Part shown: positions 15,690-24,765 of the stretch, piece by piece
Layout of the letters: every line of letters starts with the position of its first letter
Numbering within the stretch: the stretch's first letter is position 1
Assembly (NCBI RefSeq): GCF_009372235.1
Contig: NZ_SULL01000006.1
Coordinates: 248,001 to 312,000 of the forward strand
Reading direction: 5' to 3'
DNA from: Dickeya oryzae
GTDB taxonomy: Bacteria; Pseudomonadota; Gammaproteobacteria; Enterobacterales; Enterobacteriaceae
Length of the DNA stretch: 64,000 nucleotides
Notes under the pieces: generated by a model
What the model was told of the DNA's origin: nothing
Databases searched by the model: none
What the model saw: the letters and a program-made list of their open reading frames with translations, nothing else
Translations under genes and position numbers: made by a program

Positions 15690-18195
<2,506 letters not shown>

Positions 18196-20961
18196 CTACT
18201 GTGCTATCAAATCTGCTGCAACCAACCCAGTATCAGCACGGTAGTAATGCACCATCTCACCCGGCGTCAGCAGCAATACCTCCGCGCCGGGGCGGTGCAG
18301 TTGTTGCCGGAAACGTTCCAGTAAATCGCCCTGTAGCGTCGGCCACCCGTTTTGGTGTTGCTGCCACCAACGCTTGCGTACCGACAGGCGGCTTCTCTCC
18401 CAGCTAAACTCGCCGTCGCCAGCATAGGGCTGCGGTAGTGCATCATCACTCTCAGCACGCCAGGCCAGATAGACATCCTGCGATTCCTCGCCTGTGCGGG
18501 TAAACAGCTCAGCGTCATCGCTCCAGCCGCGCTGTGCTGCGGCCACGCAGTACCCCAATGAAAACGTCAGCGAGGATTGCGCCGCAACGGTGCGATCACC
18601 CAGTTGCTTGCCTTGCGCCTGATAATCCCCCTCCTCCAATGCGATGGGTGCCGCAATACGTTGCTCATACACACTGTCTATCAGCAAACGCGCCTCGTCC
18701 GGCATGCGTAACGCCCCTCGCTCACGCAATATCGCCTGAGTGCGCCACAACACCGCCTGATGCGCGTACACCGCGCCGGTGCCACGTAGTTCTGCTCCCA
18801 GCCAGTCACGCCCAGCATCTGGTTGCCACGCTGGTGCCAGCACCCACAACACCGGCGCGGCGCGATCGTCCCGCTCTGGCGCGTCATCCCCCGGCTGTTT
18901 ACCGCTACCGTCTGCCCGGCGAATATGCCGTTGCAACCGTCCCGCACGCTGGATCAAGAGATCCACCGGTGCCAGGTCGCTTATCATCACGTCCACATCA
19001 ATATCCAGCGACTGTTCTACCACCTGTGTGGCAATCAGCACCTTGCCACGCCGTGTCTCGCCGTCGCTGTGTTTGCCAAAACGCTCAATCGCCGTGTCTT
19101 CAATCGCCATACGGTCACAAAACGCAAACCGGCTGTGGAACAGCAAGACGTCGTCTGCGGCTATCTCACCGTTCTGACACAGTTGTTGCCAGGCGGCTAT
19201 CGCGTCATCCACCGTGTTGCGGATCCAACACACGCACTGCCCACTCGCCACCGCCTGACGAATTCGTTCAATGGCGTCAGTACGGTGGGATAACCACGCC
19301 ACCTCAACGGTACGGCGAACCTCTGCACGGGTTTCGACTGGCCATTCATGCAACGCCTGCGCATTAACATGGGTAAACCACGGATAACCGGCTTGCCCGG
19401 CCAGTTCACCGGCGGGCTGCTGCATACCCCGGTAAAATGCCTGAACTAACCGCTCCCGCTGCGATGCCGCTAGCGTGGCAGTCAGAATGATCGCGCTGCC
19501 GCCCTGACTGGCGTGGAAAGTCAGCAGGTTTTCCAGCAAGCGGCTGGTGTAGGCGTCGTACGCATGCACCTCATCCAACAGCAGGATTTTGCCGCTCAAC
19601 CCCAACAAACGCAGCGACTGGTGCCGAAACGGCATCACCGCCATCAAAGCCTGATCGAGTGTGCCGACGCCCACATCCGCCAACAACGCTTTCTTGCGCG
19701 AATCAGCAAACCACTGGTTGCATGCGGCACTGGCGCTACGCTCATCCGAGCCATAGCGCACCGGACCGCTCTGCTCTGGTCCCCATAGCGACAAGCGGAA
19801 ATCCGACACCATATCGCGCGCGCCGTGCGCCAGCATTAGCGATGGCAAACCGGATTCGCTAAACACGGTGCGATAGGCTTTCGATAACCGTCGGTACATG
19901 GCGTTAGCGGTCGCCATGGTCGGCAGGCCGACATACAGCCCGTCACCATACCCGGCGCTTAATAAGCGGTGTGTCAGTACTAGCGCCGCCTCGGTCTTAC
20001 CTGCTCCCGTGACATCTTCCAGCAAAAAAAGCTGTGGGCCGGGCGTACTGATATCCACTGTCATTGCCTGCTGCTGCAACGGTGTTGGCTGGGTAATAAA
20101 AGGAAACAGGGCCTGCATTCCCTGAAACGGCGCAACACCACAGGCGTCGGGCAGGCGCAATACGGCGTTTTCCGCCTGCGGTAAGGCGTATTCACGCCAG
20201 TAATCCGCCAGTGCCATCGGCTGTGAGCAATAAGGGAAATCGGCCTGGGACGAGCCTCCCCAGTCTGCCAGCACCACACAACCCGCCAACGACCAGCTCC
20301 GCTGTTGCAGCAAGGCTCGCCAGCTTCTATCGCTAAATGCATCGGGAAACGCGGTTAATTGCGGGAAAACTGTGCGCAAATCGGTCAGGTAAGCCTGCGC
20401 GGCCACAATGTCGTCCGGGTGAAACGCCAGCGCACCGTTATCGTCTTCCAACGGCGGCTGTCCGTGGTGACCACACATCAACCGTAACCACAGGTCCATC
20501 ACATAATGAAATTTGTCAGAGCGGGAAACTTCAGGTAACCAACTGGCGTCATGCTCCCAACGCTCATAAAGTCGATAACGCCACAGCCATAACCCTAACG
20601 AATCATGTCGCACTGGCGATGCCTGCCCTGCGGCACGCACCAGCGGCGCATCAGGGTTCTGGTATAACTGTTGGAAACTGCGGGCAAATTTACCGATATC
20701 ATGCCAGGCAAGAAACCATGCCAGCCATAATGCCGCACTCTCTTCCTCTAATCCGAGCGACTGCATGTGATCGCGGACATGAAAACGATTATGTTTCACC
20801 AGCCAATACCCACAAGCCGCCACATCCAGACAGTGATAGGGCAACAAATGATACGGCGCATCGTTTTCATTTTCAGAAGACGATTGTGCCTTACCCCAAT
20901 AATGAAAATAGGGCGCAGTTAACCGTTCCAACTGGACTGCCTCAGGCATGGCATACCTCAT
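18196..20961 (-). CDS. cas3: CRISPR nuclease-helicase Cas3 (type I-E)
   Basis: Single-strand nuclease and 3'-5' helicase that degrades DNA marked by Cascade. It has 921 residues. The HD nuclease domain comes first, with His43 in LLPYHCLDVA and His88-Asp89 in AWHDIGKFARS. The SF2 helicase follows: Walker A VTGAGKTEAA (around residue 315), DEVH box LLLDEVHAYD, motif III ILTATLA, and QRAGRLQRH as motif VI. It is separate from the Cascade genes and is preceded by an AT-rich region with its own candidate promoter. A start at the second Met (MPEAVQLERL) is equally possible. Confidence 0.97.
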   Translation of the reverse strand: MRYAMPEAVQLERLTAPYFHYWGKAQSSSENENDAPYHLLPYHCLDVAACGYWLVKHNRFHVRDHMQSLGLEEESAALWLAWFLAWHDIGKFARSFQQLYQNPDAPLVRAAGQASPVRHDSLGLWLWRYRLYERWEHDASWLPEVSRSDKFHYVMDLWLRLMCGHHGQPPLEDDNGALAFHPDDIVAAQAYLTDLRTVFPQLTAFPDAFSDRSWRALLQQRSWSLAGCVVLADWGGSSQADFPYCSQPMALADYWREYALPQAENAVLRLPDACGVAPFQGMQALFPFITQPTPLQQQAMTVDISTPGPQLFLLEDVTGAGKTEAALVLTHRLLSAGYGDGLYVGLPTMATANAMYRRLSKAYRTVFSESGLPSLMLAHGARDMVSDFRLSLWGPEQSGPVRYGSDERSASAACNQWFADSRKKALLADVGVGTLDQALMAVMPFRHQSLRLLGLSGKILLLDEVHAYDAYTSRLLENLLTFHASQGGSAIILTATLAASQRERLVQAFYRGMQQPAGELAGQAGYPWFTHVNAQALHEWPVETRAEVRRTVEVAWLSHRTDAIERIRQAVASGQCVCWIRNTVDDAIAAWQQLCQNGEIAADDVLLFHSRFAFCDRMAIEDTAIERFGKHSDGETRRGKVLIATQVVEQSLDIDVDVMISDLAPVDLLIQRAGRLQRHIRRADGSGKQPGDDAPERDDRAAPVLWVLAPAWQPDAGRDWLGAELRGTGAVYAHQAVLWRTQAILRERGALRMPDEARLLIDSVYEQRIAAPIALEEGDYQAQGKQLGDRTVAAQSSLTFSLGYCVAAAQRGWSDDAELFTRTGEESQDVYLAWRAESDDALPQPYAGDGEFSWERSRLSVRKRWWQQHQNGWPTLQGDLLERFRQQLHRPGAEVLLLTPGEMVHYYRADTGLVAADLIAQ

Positions 20962-21013: not shown

Positions 21014-21595
21014 GATAATTTTTATAAATAAAAAAGCGACTTAACAACACCGTCATTTAAGTTAGCGAAGAAATAATATCTTTAAGTTATATTTTACACG
21101 CTTCTTTTCTCGGCTCCGTTGACTGCATTATTCGTTTTACAGATATGGCTCTTCGATCAGAGAGCTATCTAAAAAATTTAGTGCTAATGCCACAGCACAT
21201 TGCCTGCCACTATCAAAACGATCCCCCTCGATTTTTGATGTTGCTCATCTGGTAGCAAGTAAGGTCCAACTCAGCATTGGCAAGAGATAAACCCAAAAAC
21301 CAGGATTGTTTATCAACCGATTCGCTCTCTGTGGGTGAATCCTATAAACGATGGCATCAGGTCATCCTCTGGGAAAGAATAGGCTTACTAACGTGTAGTA
21401 GTATTAGAAAGGCTGTTTAAACGTTCTTTTAAAAGAATGCCATTCCTGAACAACGTCATATCAGACTCATGGTAATAAAACCGACAAGAAATATAATCAC
21501 AAAAAAAACCACTTCATATAAATTAATTACGAAATTGCACATCATAACTCTTAAAAACCGCTTCTAATCATTTTTCTTATTCATAAATTTCTTTA

Positions 21596-21623
21596 TTGAC
21601 AGTTTAGATTAACCAATGATAAC
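21596..21623 (+). promoter_or_regulatory. Strong sigma-70-like promoter of the small-protein gene
   Basis: A perfect TTGACA at 21596-21601 is followed after 16 bp by GATAAC (4 of 6 matches to TATAAT). The expected transcript would have about 80 nt of leader before the ATG at 21711. Confidence 0.55.
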
Positions 21624-21710
21624 TATGTTATCGAGATGATGCTGACATACATCTCATTAACAATTCACCTGCATTTATTAAAACCATTCAACTAGGAAGT
21701 GAGGTTTTTT

Positions 21711-21974
21711 ATGAGCAAAGCTAACGAAATTGCGAGTCTGTATAAAACACCGAAAATGGTTAATAGCAACGATGTAGAAGGTAATAGCTTTACCGATATG
21801 CTTTTACAGACGAAAGCAACCGCATCGGCCGCTTTTGATAAACTCGCTTATTTAGCTGGCATCAAAAATGCGCCTGCAGACGATAAATATGCACAACTGA
21901 ATACCAGCAGTCTCAGCGAACTGATGGAGAGCGCTAAAAGTGCCGGGTACGATGTTGAGATCGTAAGTATCTAA
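21711..21974 (+). CDS. Unknown 87-residue small protein, possible precursor peptide
   Basis: I do not recognise a family. The ATG at 21711 is chosen because GGAAGTGAGG stands 6-7 bases before it; a GTG four codons earlier overlaps that ribosome site. The protein has no Cys, His, Trp or Arg, is acidic, and is rich in Ser, Ala and Asn. The N-terminal third is polar, the middle (TASAAFDKLAYLAGIK, about 37-52) looks helical, and it ends with a helix SLSELMESAKSAGYD and a hydrophobic tail VEIVSI. The AKSAGYDVE ending vaguely recalls the end of Nif11-type leader peptides, which is not proof. A strong promoter precedes it and a terminator-like hairpin follows, so it should be made in excess over the two downstream genes. 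A secreted or modified peptide is my inference. Confidence 0.75.
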   Translation: MSKANEIASLYKTPKMVNSNDVEGNSFTDMLLQTKATASAAFDKLAYLAGIKNAPADDKYAQLNTSSLSELMESAKSAGYDVEIVSI

Positions 21975-21981
21975 TGACCGG

Positions 21982-22009
21982 GGGGCAATCTTTATGATTG
22001 CCCCAATTT
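21982..22009 (+). terminator. Terminator-like hairpin between the small-protein and cupin genes
   Basis: GGGGCAATC pairs perfectly with GATTGCCCC around TTTAT, followed by AATTTTATT. It lies 7 bp past the stop of the small-protein gene and 18 bp before the start of the cupin gene. Partial read-through would give many copies of the small protein per copy of the downstream proteins. Confidence 0.75.
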
Positions 22010-22027
22010 TATTGGAGAGGCCGTTAA

Positions 22028-23323
22028 ATGAACAATGAAATTGATGCGATTAACCAGAAAATAACTATCGATGGACTTCGTTGGGTTCCTCGCTGGAGAG
22101 TTAACAACGGTAAGTCGGATTCATTTGTCGTACCTTTTGCAACAACCTACCCAATAAATATTGTATTTCACGGTGAGAGTGAGTTTAAATATGGACAATA
22201 TGGAATTCACTTAGGACAACAAGATACGCTCACATTCCTGGGACATGAAGAGCAGGTCATTTTGGCCAAATTTATTGATTGTCGAGAGAGTTCGCCAACA
22301 TTCAGACAAGCCTTAACATTTAACATCAATCCATCGTCCTCAAAAACCCTTATCATTCCACCCGGTGTTGCCCATACCTTCCATAATCTGGAAAATGTCT
22401 TCACGCTAAATTCATATACACTTTTCCTTCCAGATATTGACATCTTATCCAGTGCTAACCTGAGCTGGTCACCAGGAAATGACGTGATTAACATCCCTGA
22501 AGATATTTCTCCAGCAGAGGTACATGGTTATCACCCAATGACCGAGGAAGCATCCAGCATTGTCTATTATCGTATCGGAGAGTTTCAAGAGGAAAACCTT
22601 AAAAAACATAAATTCCAACACTCAGAAACCAGAGAGTTTATATTAGATGATGGAAGTAAAATCAATCTGAGGATAAGAGAAAAAATTGATGGTAGTGCAA
22701 CAGTAAAGCTTCCTCAATCAAAAATTACTGGTGTAGAATTCAGAGAAATTCCATCGATAAAGACGGGAAAAGAGAGTTGTATTGTGCCGCTGACCCGAAA
22801 ATCCCCAATGTATATTGTTGAGCATGGTAATGAGCATTATGACTTTGATTCTTATGGTCTACATTTGGGTCAGGAGGACCACCTAACCTTTTTAGGAAAA
22901 ATGGGGCATGAAATAAAATTAAAACTGGTTGATATGAGGAAAGGCTCTGATACCCTTTTCGTTGAAGAAGAGTTAACATTCACACCTCACCCTAATGTAG
23001 AATTAGTCATACCCTGTGGGGTTGCACATGCCTTATTCAACATGGCAAATATCATTACCATCAACCGGCCTATCATATTTCTCAGCCGCGACAAAGAGTA
23101 CATCCCCGGTCATGATGTTATTGACTGGCCAATCAATAATAGAGAATACATGAGCTACAGCGTGAATGATGTAGAGGCTGATACCGCGTACTATGAGTTT
23201 CTGGTTTCTCAACAAAAAGAAATTGCTCGTGAAAAACCCACACATAACACGCCAAAGTCTGTCATTGTTTTTGATGAAAGCTCAGGAAAGCATGTTAAGG
23301 TACTCTTAAAGGAAAAAGTATAA
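22028..23323 (+). CDS. Tandem RmlC-like double-cupin protein, function unknown
   Basis: A 431-residue protein of two similar units of about 215 residues. Unit A (about 14-220) has YGIHLGQQDTLTFLG (58-72), CRESSPTF (85-92), IPPGVAHTF (110-118) and SPGNDVINIPED (148-159). Unit B (about 230-431) repeats these as YGLHLGQEDHLTFLG (276-290), MRKGSDTLF (303-311), IPCGVAHALF (328-337) and IPGHDVIDWPIN (359-370). The D-x-R-SPTF and IP-x-GVAH motifs and the GLH histidine are those of dTDP-4-dehydrorhamnose 3,5-epimerase (RmlC) and related cupins. No nucleotide-sugar genes are nearby, so a sugar substrate is doubtful. GGAGAGG precedes the ATG. AT-rich; next to an unknown small protein and an exporter. 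It may modify or bind the small product of the cassette. Confidence 0.85.
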   Translation: MNNEIDAINQKITIDGLRWVPRWRVNNGKSDSFVVPFATTYPINIVFHGESEFKYGQYGIHLGQQDTLTFLGHEEQVILAKFIDCRESSPTFRQALTFNINPSSSKTLIIPPGVAHTFHNLENVFTLNSYTLFLPDIDILSSANLSWSPGNDVINIPEDISPAEVHGYHPMTEEASSIVYYRIGEFQEENLKKHKFQHSETREFILDDGSKINLRIREKIDGSATVKLPQSKITGVEFREIPSIKTGKESCIVPLTRKSPMYIVEHGNEHYDFDSYGLHLGQEDHLTFLGKMGHEIKLKLVDMRKGSDTLFVEEELTFTPHPNVELVIPCGVAHALFNMANIITINRPIIFLSRDKEYIPGHDVIDWPINNREYMSYSVNDVEADTAYYEFLVSQQKEIAREKPTHNTPKSVIVFDESSGKHVKVLLKEKV

Positions 23324-23332
23324 AGGTCACCT

Positions 23333-24547
23333 ATGAACGCCCCATTCTTTTTTATGTTGTTTTTGGTTTTAACAGCAGATGGACTAATGGTTTTTCTGAC
23401 TCCCGTTATTGTCTATCAACTCACCGGAAGTATTGGATATTCAGGATTATCATATGCTCTATGGTGGTTACCTAGGGTGATTATTATTCCGTTAGTTGGG
23501 ACGTTTATTGATAAACTGGGCATTCGTCCATTATCTATCATGTCTGATGTCATTAAATCAGCGGGGTGTATTTTTCTGGCACTAACAGAATTCTCGTCCA
23601 ACTTGATGATAGCAGTCTCATTTGGAATCATTGGGAGCATCATATCCATCGGTAATTCACAAACGATTATCACATACGAAAAATTAGTGTCATCACTCAG
23701 TAAGACTAAAGATCATCACGCCAACCTGATTTCAAGAATGGATTTTTTAGGCATGATAGTCGGCCCGTTGATGGGTATGTTATTAATTGACTACGGATTC
23801 AAGATAGCACTTATCTTACCCTGTGTTTTTTATACTATGAACGCAGTTTTCTTTTTCTTTGAAAAGAAAAACCTCAGGACCTCATTCATTGATATTAAAC
23901 AGAATGACACTATACCAAGTGATAGTAAAAACAACATAAAAGATTGTGCACTCTATCTGCTTTCAACACCGATACTTATCTTTACCATTTTTTTGGCAGT
24001 AGGTAATAACATGTTTGATGGTCTGGTGGAATCAAGCGGTGCAGCCTTAATTGAAAGAGGGATGAACCTTCCCGTCAAATATTTCGGTTTGATAGATGTT
24101 GCTGCTGGTCTCTGCGGCGTTTTAGGCACTTATTGTTATAGTTATTTAAGACCACTAATCGGTAGAAAGGTGCTTTTACTACTTGCTATTATGATTATAG
24201 TTTCCAGCTCAATATCATTGATAGCATTTAAAGAATCGTTTATCGTCTTTATTGGTTGTTATGCATTATCAATTGTAGGTAAAGTTTTTACCGGAAATAT
24301 TTGTCGCATGATACGTATTGAAGTTATCAATCCGGCCATGTTTGCCAGTACATCGTCATTGATTGTTTTATTAAACCAGTCAGTGCTCCCACTTATAGGT
24401 TTGATCTTATATATCGCAGGCGATTCAACACAGTTTGTTTATCTCTTAATGGCTATTGGCATCGTTATTTCCTCAGGGGCAGGATTTTTTCTATATAGAA
24501 GAATGATGTTACCTGAAGCGAAACCAGACGCTCCTCAAGCTACCTAA
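23333..24547 (+). CDS. Major facilitator superfamily transporter, probable exporter
   Basis: Integral membrane protein of 404 residues with about 12 hydrophobic segments, resembling the drug/siderophore exporter branch of the MFS (EntS/MdtH-like layout). The loop after the second segment reads GTFIDKLGIRPL, a variant of the G-x-x-x-D-R-x-G-R/K MFS signature. It starts 9 bp after the cupin gene and shares its AT-rich composition, so the two are one transcript. Export of whatever the cassette makes, or self-protection against it, is the likely job. A good terminator follows. Confidence 0.85.
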   Translation: MNAPFFFMLFLVLTADGLMVFLTPVIVYQLTGSIGYSGLSYALWWLPRVIIIPLVGTFIDKLGIRPLSIMSDVIKSAGCIFLALTEFSSNLMIAVSFGIIGSIISIGNSQTIITYEKLVSSLSKTKDHHANLISRMDFLGMIVGPLMGMLLIDYGFKIALILPCVFYTMNAVFFFFEKKNLRTSFIDIKQNDTIPSDSKNNIKDCALYLLSTPILIFTIFLAVGNNMFDGLVESSGAALIERGMNLPVKYFGLIDVAAGLCGVLGTYCYSYLRPLIGRKVLLLLAIMIIVSSSISLIAFKESFIVFIGCYALSIVGKVFTGNICRMIRIEVINPAMFASTSSLIVLLNQSVLPLIGLILYIAGDSTQFVYLLMAIGIVISSGAGFFLYRRMMLPEAKPDAPQAT

Positions 24548-24618
24548 ATAGCGTTGTATACTCGTAGCACTACACAACCCTTATTAAGTAGAAAGCCTGC
24601 CATATGATCAACGTTGAT

Positions 24619-24655
24619 AAACCCGTACCAGATTTCAGTGTGGTATGGGTTTATT
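24619..24655 (+). terminator. Terminator after the MFS gene
   Basis: AAACCCGTACCA pairs with TGGTATGGGTTT (one G-T pair) around a 10-base loop, followed by ATTT. It closes the cassette before the sucrose regulon. Confidence 0.65.
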
Positions 24656-24765
24656 TGACACAAATACGCTTCCGTTTCATCCACCTGACTGATAAAGCCT
24701 ACCGGACATCCTGCTCATAACGCTCTTGGTCTTACTTTAGCGCATTATTATCTATCCACAAGTTG

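Follow-up and report, generated by a model that had tools for sequence, protein, structure and literature searches.

A mobile three-gene cassette linking a small conserved protein, a tandem RmlC-like cupin and an MFS exporter in Dickeya oryzae and other enterobacteria

Ribosomal peptide clusters are usually laid out as an overproduced short gene together with an enzyme and an exporter. In the non-ribosomal dipeptide pathway of bacilysin, the bicupin BacB is accompanied by BacE, an exporter of the major facilitator superfamily (MFS), and the epimerase RmlC employs a substrate arginine and lysine together with a catalytic His-Asp pair. Here, we describe a locus that shares features with each of these systems. 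It lies in a stretch of 64,000 nucleotides of the Dickeya oryzae genome (contig NZ_SULL01000006.1, positions 248,001 to 312,000; hereafter the window) and comprises three genes, encoding a small protein of 87 residues, a tandem RmlC-like cupin and an MFS exporter. The cassette is a real, conserved and mobile unit. We favor, at a probability of about one in two, the reading that it is a horizontally moving, self-contained cassette of the ribosomally synthesized and post-translationally modified peptide (RiPP) or scaffold-peptide type, in which the cupin binds and probably modifies the middle of the small protein. The features of the locus, in window coordinates, are as follows.

21044–24747, no strand: AT-rich insert bearing the cassette, 38.3% GC; the flank alignment breaks here in congeners.
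21596–21621, plus strand: putative promoter, TTGACA and an extended -10 TGnTA, from upstream column conservation in 13 loci.
21711–21974, plus strand: small protein gene, ATG start, 87 amino acids; putative precursor or scaffold peptide.
21837–21890, plus strand: small-protein codons 43–60, DKLAYLAGIKNAPADDKY; candidate core or presented segment.
21982–22004, plus strand: intercistronic hairpin; putative partial terminator or RNA-end stabilizer.
22028–23323, plus strand: tandem RmlC-like cupin gene, 431 amino acids; putative peptide-binding or peptide-modifying protein.
23333–24547, plus strand: MFS exporter gene, 404 amino acids; PF07690 match.
24616–24655, plus strand: closing hairpin with a 15-pair outer stem, without a U-tract.

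The small, cupin and MFS genes were found in one order in 14 species, each species counted once, from at least seven named enterobacterial genera. Scanning 84,980 species genomes for the cupin yielded eight loci (Serratia nevei, Chimaeribacter arupi, Providencia rettgeri, Pantoea sp. AS-PWVM4, Proteus myxofaciens, Winslowiella iniecta, an Erwinia metagenome-assembled genome and Candidatus Pantoea deserta), a count that is a lower bound because the scan requires exact short peptides of one sequence, and in all eight the cupin gene was preceded by the small gene and followed by the MFS gene. Among whole genomes of the GTDB family, the small protein matched in 6 of 295; one of these matches (genome G116; E-value 0.0036, 24% identity, within a 538-residue frame) was judged spurious and excluded from the counts. 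The cupin profile matched in 7 of 392 family genomes, five times at full length and with the small gene alongside, and the other two matches (genomes G976 and G291), on contigs that end inside or beside the gene, cannot be judged and were likewise excluded. The G291 contig ends in a cupin-gene fragment interrupted by several stops, which by eye lies beside phosphate-transport-like genes. In wider samples, only the window's own genome matched, both for the cupin (1 of 398 genomes of the phylum) and for the small protein (1 of 295 of the order), and sampling outside the phylum was limited. Plasmid records added Pantoea piersonii, a plasmid of C. arupi and two entries for Proteus mirabilis, which at about 4.1 Mb are the size of a chromosome although filed as plasmids; neither the second P. 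mirabilis entry nor the plasmid of C. arupi was treated as an extra species. There was no match in E. coli genomes, phages or viral contigs (five scans), and a reading of the cassette as phage cargo was rejected, the phages showing no match and the five viral-contig scans no relative. A known anti-phage defense system was also rejected, since none of the three cassette proteins matched a PADLOC defense model at E-values up to 0.01.

The flanks of 13 of the 14 species loci represent 10 genomic contexts, two plasmids among them. One context is common to three Proteus species and another to W. iniecta and genome G119, while the remaining contexts share only short matches (90–353 bp), mostly at the cassette edges. 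Apart from a frame antisense to the cupin gene, the cupin and the pump were the only frames of at least 100 residues that recurred in at least three of these 13 loci across unrelated contexts. Moreover, the protein distances were correlated between small protein and cupin (r = 0.92), small protein and MFS protein (0.78) and cupin and MFS protein (0.86), with none of 5000 permutations as high in each case; the cupin of the Erwinia metagenome-assembled genome, which is split over two frames, was omitted from the cupin alignment and entered the distance matrix with its first 291 residues. Judged from these comparisons of sequences and neighborhoods, the trio moves and diverges as one unit. An initial annotation, made from the letters of the window, had proposed that this trio should be sought across genera, and its occurrence in one order in 14 species and 10 contexts answers that point.

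The mobility of the cassette is visible at its insertion site. The insert is flanked on the left by cas3 (Cas3 HD and C-terminal domains) and on the right by the gene for a PfkB-family kinase, earlier named scrK. The flanks can be aligned to congener G1010 at 92% up to position 21043 and at 91% from position 24748, with 238 bp unaligned in between, and in congener G959 the alignment ends at 21046 and restarts at 24754. Because these flanks match but skip the insert, both are cas3-bearing congeners without the cassette. Within the genus, the cassette is present in two of nine genomes, the window's own and G1007, at an identical site and with identities of 95% for the small protein, 95% for the cupin and 92% for the MFS protein; in the other seven, a PF00908 search yielded high-scoring RmlC only. 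The composition of the insert also differs from its surroundings, its GC content comparing with 54.8% for the whole window, and third-position GC is 35–42% in the small, cupin and MFS genes and 62% in scrK. Thus, the AT-rich block between cas3 and scrK, the three open reading frames (ORFs), their order and the 9 bp between the cupin stop codon and the MFS start, all recorded in the initial annotation, were confirmed. Separately, the alignment of congeners G282 and G208 jumps across window positions 18116–20840, so that cas3 is missing here in both, and the site is plastic independently of the cassette.

Pfam, NCBIfam, PHROGs, PADLOC and PDB sequences gave no convincing family for the small protein, in agreement with the initial annotation, which saw no family resemblance and would have taken a match to a known structural or regulatory family as evidence against its proposal. 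A Pfam match to RedAm-like_C (E-value 0.015, 16 bits against a cut-off of 27, in 1 of 11 members), a PHROG match (E-value 0.14) and a PDB match (E-value 0.66) were taken as chance. The segment LAGIKNAPADDKY (residues 48–60, L48–Y60) is identical in all 14 copies, with varying codons. This is the longest invariant run, 13 columns, and none of 100,000 shuffles reached it (32 invariant among 89 columns, 14 sequences). Across residues 43–60, 17 of 18 positions are invariant in 13 sequences, position 47 being Y in 12 and W in one, and more than one codon is used at every position; constancy despite differing codons indicates selection at the protein level. Residues 13–24 are the most variable part, and the C-terminal 25 residues are well conserved too. 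A conserved core at one end of the protein had been anticipated, but the core sits in the middle and the tail is conserved in addition. A candidate core that is nearly identical across genera would suggest that the product is a single conserved one, with a single target or receptor. The AlphaFold model of the small protein is poor (predicted local distance difference test, pLDDT, 59), with helices at residues 3–12, 26–48 and 68–77 and pLDDT below 50 at the variable linker 19–24 and at residues 50–57 within the invariant block. As a hint only, the unstructured-looking invariant stretch in this model may suit a core that undergoes modification, a ligand that is presented or a loop at an interface.

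The signals around the small gene were also conserved. The -35 element is a perfect TTGACA (21596–21601) and the -10 element only an extended TGnTA (21617–21621), and when the upstream regions of 13 loci were aligned, both ranked with the best conserved columns. The initial annotation had recorded a strong promoter upstream of the small gene, where a strict promoter scan listed none. A dyad, GATAAC-TAT-GTTATC (21618–21632), overlaps the putative -10 and may be an operator; it is similar, not identical, in a few other loci and, by eye, not evident in most aligned loci. Between the small and cupin genes, the window has a hairpin of nine pairs that the terminator scan listed as terminator-like (z-score −2.36). 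A hairpin folds here in 13 of 13 loci, with compensatory change in four of eight consensus pairs; for nine loci, comparison with shuffled sequences gave z-scores between −2.4 and −5.7. The spacer has a T-run of five or six in 6 of the 13 loci, the longest in the window being four, and this difference makes the hairpin terminator-like in some copies and a mere stem in others. On sequence grounds, either role would favor the small protein over the cupin in amount. At the other end of the cassette, the stretch 24548–24670 folds at a z-score of −3.65. Its hairpin is followed next by TTGACA, hence the missing U-tract, and the terminator scan, with a loop limit of 8, did not list it; the initial annotation had recorded it as a terminator.

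The cupin was examined against RmlC in several ways. It passed PF00908 with 45.7 bits over two stretches against a gathering score of 27, and its halves are homologous to each other (hhalign 99.6%, 33% identity), which upholds its description as two RmlC-like cupin units. In alignments to RmlC, the N-terminal half covers 81–151 only (hhalign 93%) and the C-terminal half is partial and weak (66%). The RmlC equivalog TIGR01221 was failed with 32.4 bits against a cut-off of 155.75, and a true RmlC is encoded elsewhere in the same genome (246 bits). In addition, a subfamily profile of 11 rows gave 254 and 218 bits for the two halves of the window's cupin. Elsewhere, with up to seven candidates per genome scored, it gave at most 36 bits among the matches listed in 146 other genomes (147 matching, 398 searched), and most of these reach only the second part of the profile, in RmlC-sized frames. 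By these profile scores, the cupin forms a subfamily of its own, and its identity as a plain RmlC was rejected on the equivalog score, the separate true RmlC and the gap in the subfamily profile. The histidine of GIHLGQ/GLHLGQ does not vary in either half (10 sequences) or in any of the 11 rows of the subfamily profile, and lies 23 residues ahead of the DxR aspartate, compared with 24 in RmlC. R59, K71 and the LSxKD motif of RmlC, invariant in nine RmlC rows, have by eye no evident counterpart in the cupin. The cupin probably does use its pocket, though hardly to carry out the reaction of RmlC. The AlphaFold model of the cupin is poor (pLDDT 49) and, with that of the small protein, too weak for complex modelling; a Foldseek search with it gave no match at E-values up to 0.001, many of the matches listed being RmlC-type epimerases.

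The MFS protein matches PF07690 with 43.1 bits against 33.4. A sister clade, scoring 366–425 bits compared with 610–686 for the cassette copies, was found in five other genomes of 188, and the window's own genome holds a second MFS copy of this clade (L104:6046-7275, contig C3), which could be a resistance or general exporter. At none of the six sister-clade loci did tblastn (E-values up to 0.01) detect anything related to the small protein or the cupin within about 5 kb. The cassette pump was probably recruited from a general exporter clade. According to the initial annotation, a cupin and an MFS gene occurring mostly without the small gene would speak against a peptide cassette; this is not the case for the cupin in either scan, and half the case for the pump, whose sister clade stands alone.

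The cupin subfamily was also found on three Streptomyces and two Leptolyngbya plasmid records, of which two and one neighborhoods, respectively, were inspected. In Streptomyces NBC_01351, the order is a 94-residue ORF, a cupin gene, a 92-residue ORF, a second cupin gene and an MFS gene, and in NBC_00012 a similar row is followed by two single-domain cupins, an 85-residue ORF and another MFS gene. In Leptolyngbya, an 88-residue ORF stands ahead of a 247-residue cupin, with no annotated MFS gene in the stretch viewed. On the Streptomyces plasmids, these distant members adjoin ORFs of 85–97 residues and MFS genes, a pattern whose weight depends on how often any gene has a neighbor of such a length. 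When the Streptomyces ORFs were compared with the window's small protein, 60, 182 and 251 of 300 shuffles scored as high for the three ORFs nearest the cupins, and 23 and 161 for two others. The 88-residue ORF of the Leptolyngbya boryana plasmid (L021:5436-5702), ahead of the RmlC-like gene, has a glycine-rich middle and a tail weakly like the C-terminal tail of the window's small protein (2.1 bits, a score that none of 300 shuffles equaled), a hint only, as it is one of six ORFs tried. A further ORF of 100 residues on the Streptomyces sp. NBC_00012 plasmid (L017:3029-3331), upstream of the cassette relative, has a signal-peptide-like start and three DGFGW repeats, resembles a multi-core peptide precursor and has no Pfam match.

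Taken together, we propose that the small protein would be made in excess, from one promoter followed by the hairpin ahead of the cupin gene, and that its invariant middle segment would be offered to the tandem cupin, while its C-terminal helix and tail, which are conserved, would aid recognition. The cupin would bind and probably modify the segment, a host protease may release the product, and the MFS protein would export it. This peptide-cassette interpretation, already put forward in the initial annotation, is supported in part. In its favor are the linkage of the trio across 14 species and 10 contexts, the agreeing protein distances, the family-less small protein, its invariant middle with varying codons and pLDDT below 50 at residues 50–57, the hairpin in 13 of 13 loci and the short ORFs and MFS genes near the Streptomyces relatives. 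Several points weigh against it. The cassette has no protease, recognition-element protein or known RiPP enzyme; in Pfam and NCBIfam, its proteins gave only PF00908 or RmlC and MFS families near or above the cut-off, in searches that were not dedicated to recognition elements. We know of no product of the cassette, and the pump clade exists without small gene and cupin. Low pLDDT is weak evidence where the whole model averages 59 and the linker 19–24 is below 50 as well, and invariance on both sides of the segment would equally fit a binding interface. Finally, the Streptomyces small ORFs have no detectable homology to the small protein in the shuffle test, and so they support the arrangement but not common descent.

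The main rival, less likely in our view, casts the small protein as a subunit that stably partners, activates or serves as carrier for the cupin, both acting on a small metabolite that the MFS protein exports, with no peptide matured. Strict linkage of small protein and cupin and their parallel divergence (r = 0.92) would be expected of such partners, a conserved middle and C-terminal tail suit an interface, the cassette carries no protease and the pocket histidine is kept in both cupin halves; however, the hairpin between the genes suggests unequal amounts, and the flanks share no other biosynthetic gene that could supply a metabolite. It is rather improbable that the small protein is a regulator, with cupin and pump serving together in drug sensing or detoxification. 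Although RefSeq labels two copies (L019:5690-5953 and L048:5693-5956) as XRE family transcriptional regulators, none of 11 members matched a Pfam helix-turn-helix family at E-values up to 1, and the invariant segment is predicted, in a low-confidence model, to be disordered rather than helical. The dyad over the putative -10 would suit an operator, but by eye it is not evident in most other aligned loci, and the remaining support consists of weak NCBIfam matches of single members, among them PurR (E-value 0.017) and the RelB antitoxin (0.064), each in 1 of 11 members and possibly in the same one, and of a pump whose clade is also found alone. It is hardly credible that the cupin is a conventional sugar epimerase working with an exporter of sugars or drugs, next to an unrelated small gene. 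This is what the PF00908 score above the gathering threshold and the RefSeq name of the cupin ('dTDP-4-dehydrorhamnose 3,5-epimerase family protein') would suggest, but the RmlC equivalog cut-off was missed by far, the genome has its separate RmlC and the small gene is strictly linked. Moreover, no dTDP-rhamnose genes are common next to the cassette in the 13 loci, only cupin and pump recurring across unrelated contexts, which bears out the earlier argument that the lack of nucleotide-sugar genes speaks against a plain epimerase role.

A more specific form of the peptide reading, which we consider unlikely, is a new ribosomal peptide pathway with a tandem sugar-epimerase-fold protein as its sole maturation enzyme, whose RmlC-type histidine would deprotonate a residue of LAGIKNAPADDKY and so epimerize or isomerize it before the product is exported. 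If true, many genera of enterobacteria would share one nearly constant exported product or signal, and Streptomyces and cyanobacteria would have divergent versions of it. If the favored reading of a peptide or scaffold-peptide cassette is right, two misleading labels, 'XRE regulator' and 'dTDP-rhamnose epimerase', would be replaced, and the RmlC fold, which has no such role in the accessible PubMed Central (PMC) texts searched, would join the enzymes that handle ribosomal peptides. The three-gene unit is compact enough for expression and testing in one step.

Compared with minimal RiPP clusters, the cassette is alike in its short first gene followed by a hairpin, its enzyme-like protein and exporter, and its mobile, self-contained nature; it differs in having no known RiPP enzyme, in an invariant segment that lies in the middle of a longer protein with a conserved tail, and in a modification that is putative. 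Its layout is RiPP-like, yet it is not classed here as a RiPP cluster, and a precursor role of the small protein is plausible and putative. With bacilysin it shares a bicupin beside an MFS exporter, but that pathway makes a non-ribosomal dipeptide and has no small conserved protein. With RmlC (PF00908, TIGR01221) the cupin shares the DxR..SPTF and IPxGxAH motifs and the histidine before the DxR aspartate; unlike RmlC, it consists of two fused units and is partnered with a small protein and a pump, not with sugar genes. A description of the trio was not found in the PMC literature searched, a scope outside which most subscription papers fall. In the accessible text on crocagin, CgnB and CgnE are peptide-handling proteins that present the precursor for chemistry, may have evolved from Zn-dependent enzymes and work with a dioxygenase and a protease (PMC10070186). 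They are alike in presenting a peptide and unlike in their partners, and the word 'cupin' is absent from that text; a reading of the cassette proteins as crocagin-type proteins was rejected. A cluster of marine Synechococcus that combines a Nif11 domain/cupin with a putative epimerase, mentioned in the accessible part of PMC10783134, deserves comparison. Finally, the JmjC cupin-like hydroxylases PbsQ and BpmG of biphenomycin-type RiPPs, as described in the available text of PMC12257519, resemble the present case in that a cupin-fold protein acts on a ribosomal peptide and an MFS gene lies in the cluster. In that account they are accessory to a multinuclear non-heme iron-dependent oxidative enzyme, an arginase and radical S-adenosylmethionine enzymes, whereas in the cassette described here the RmlC-like cupin is the sole enzyme candidate.

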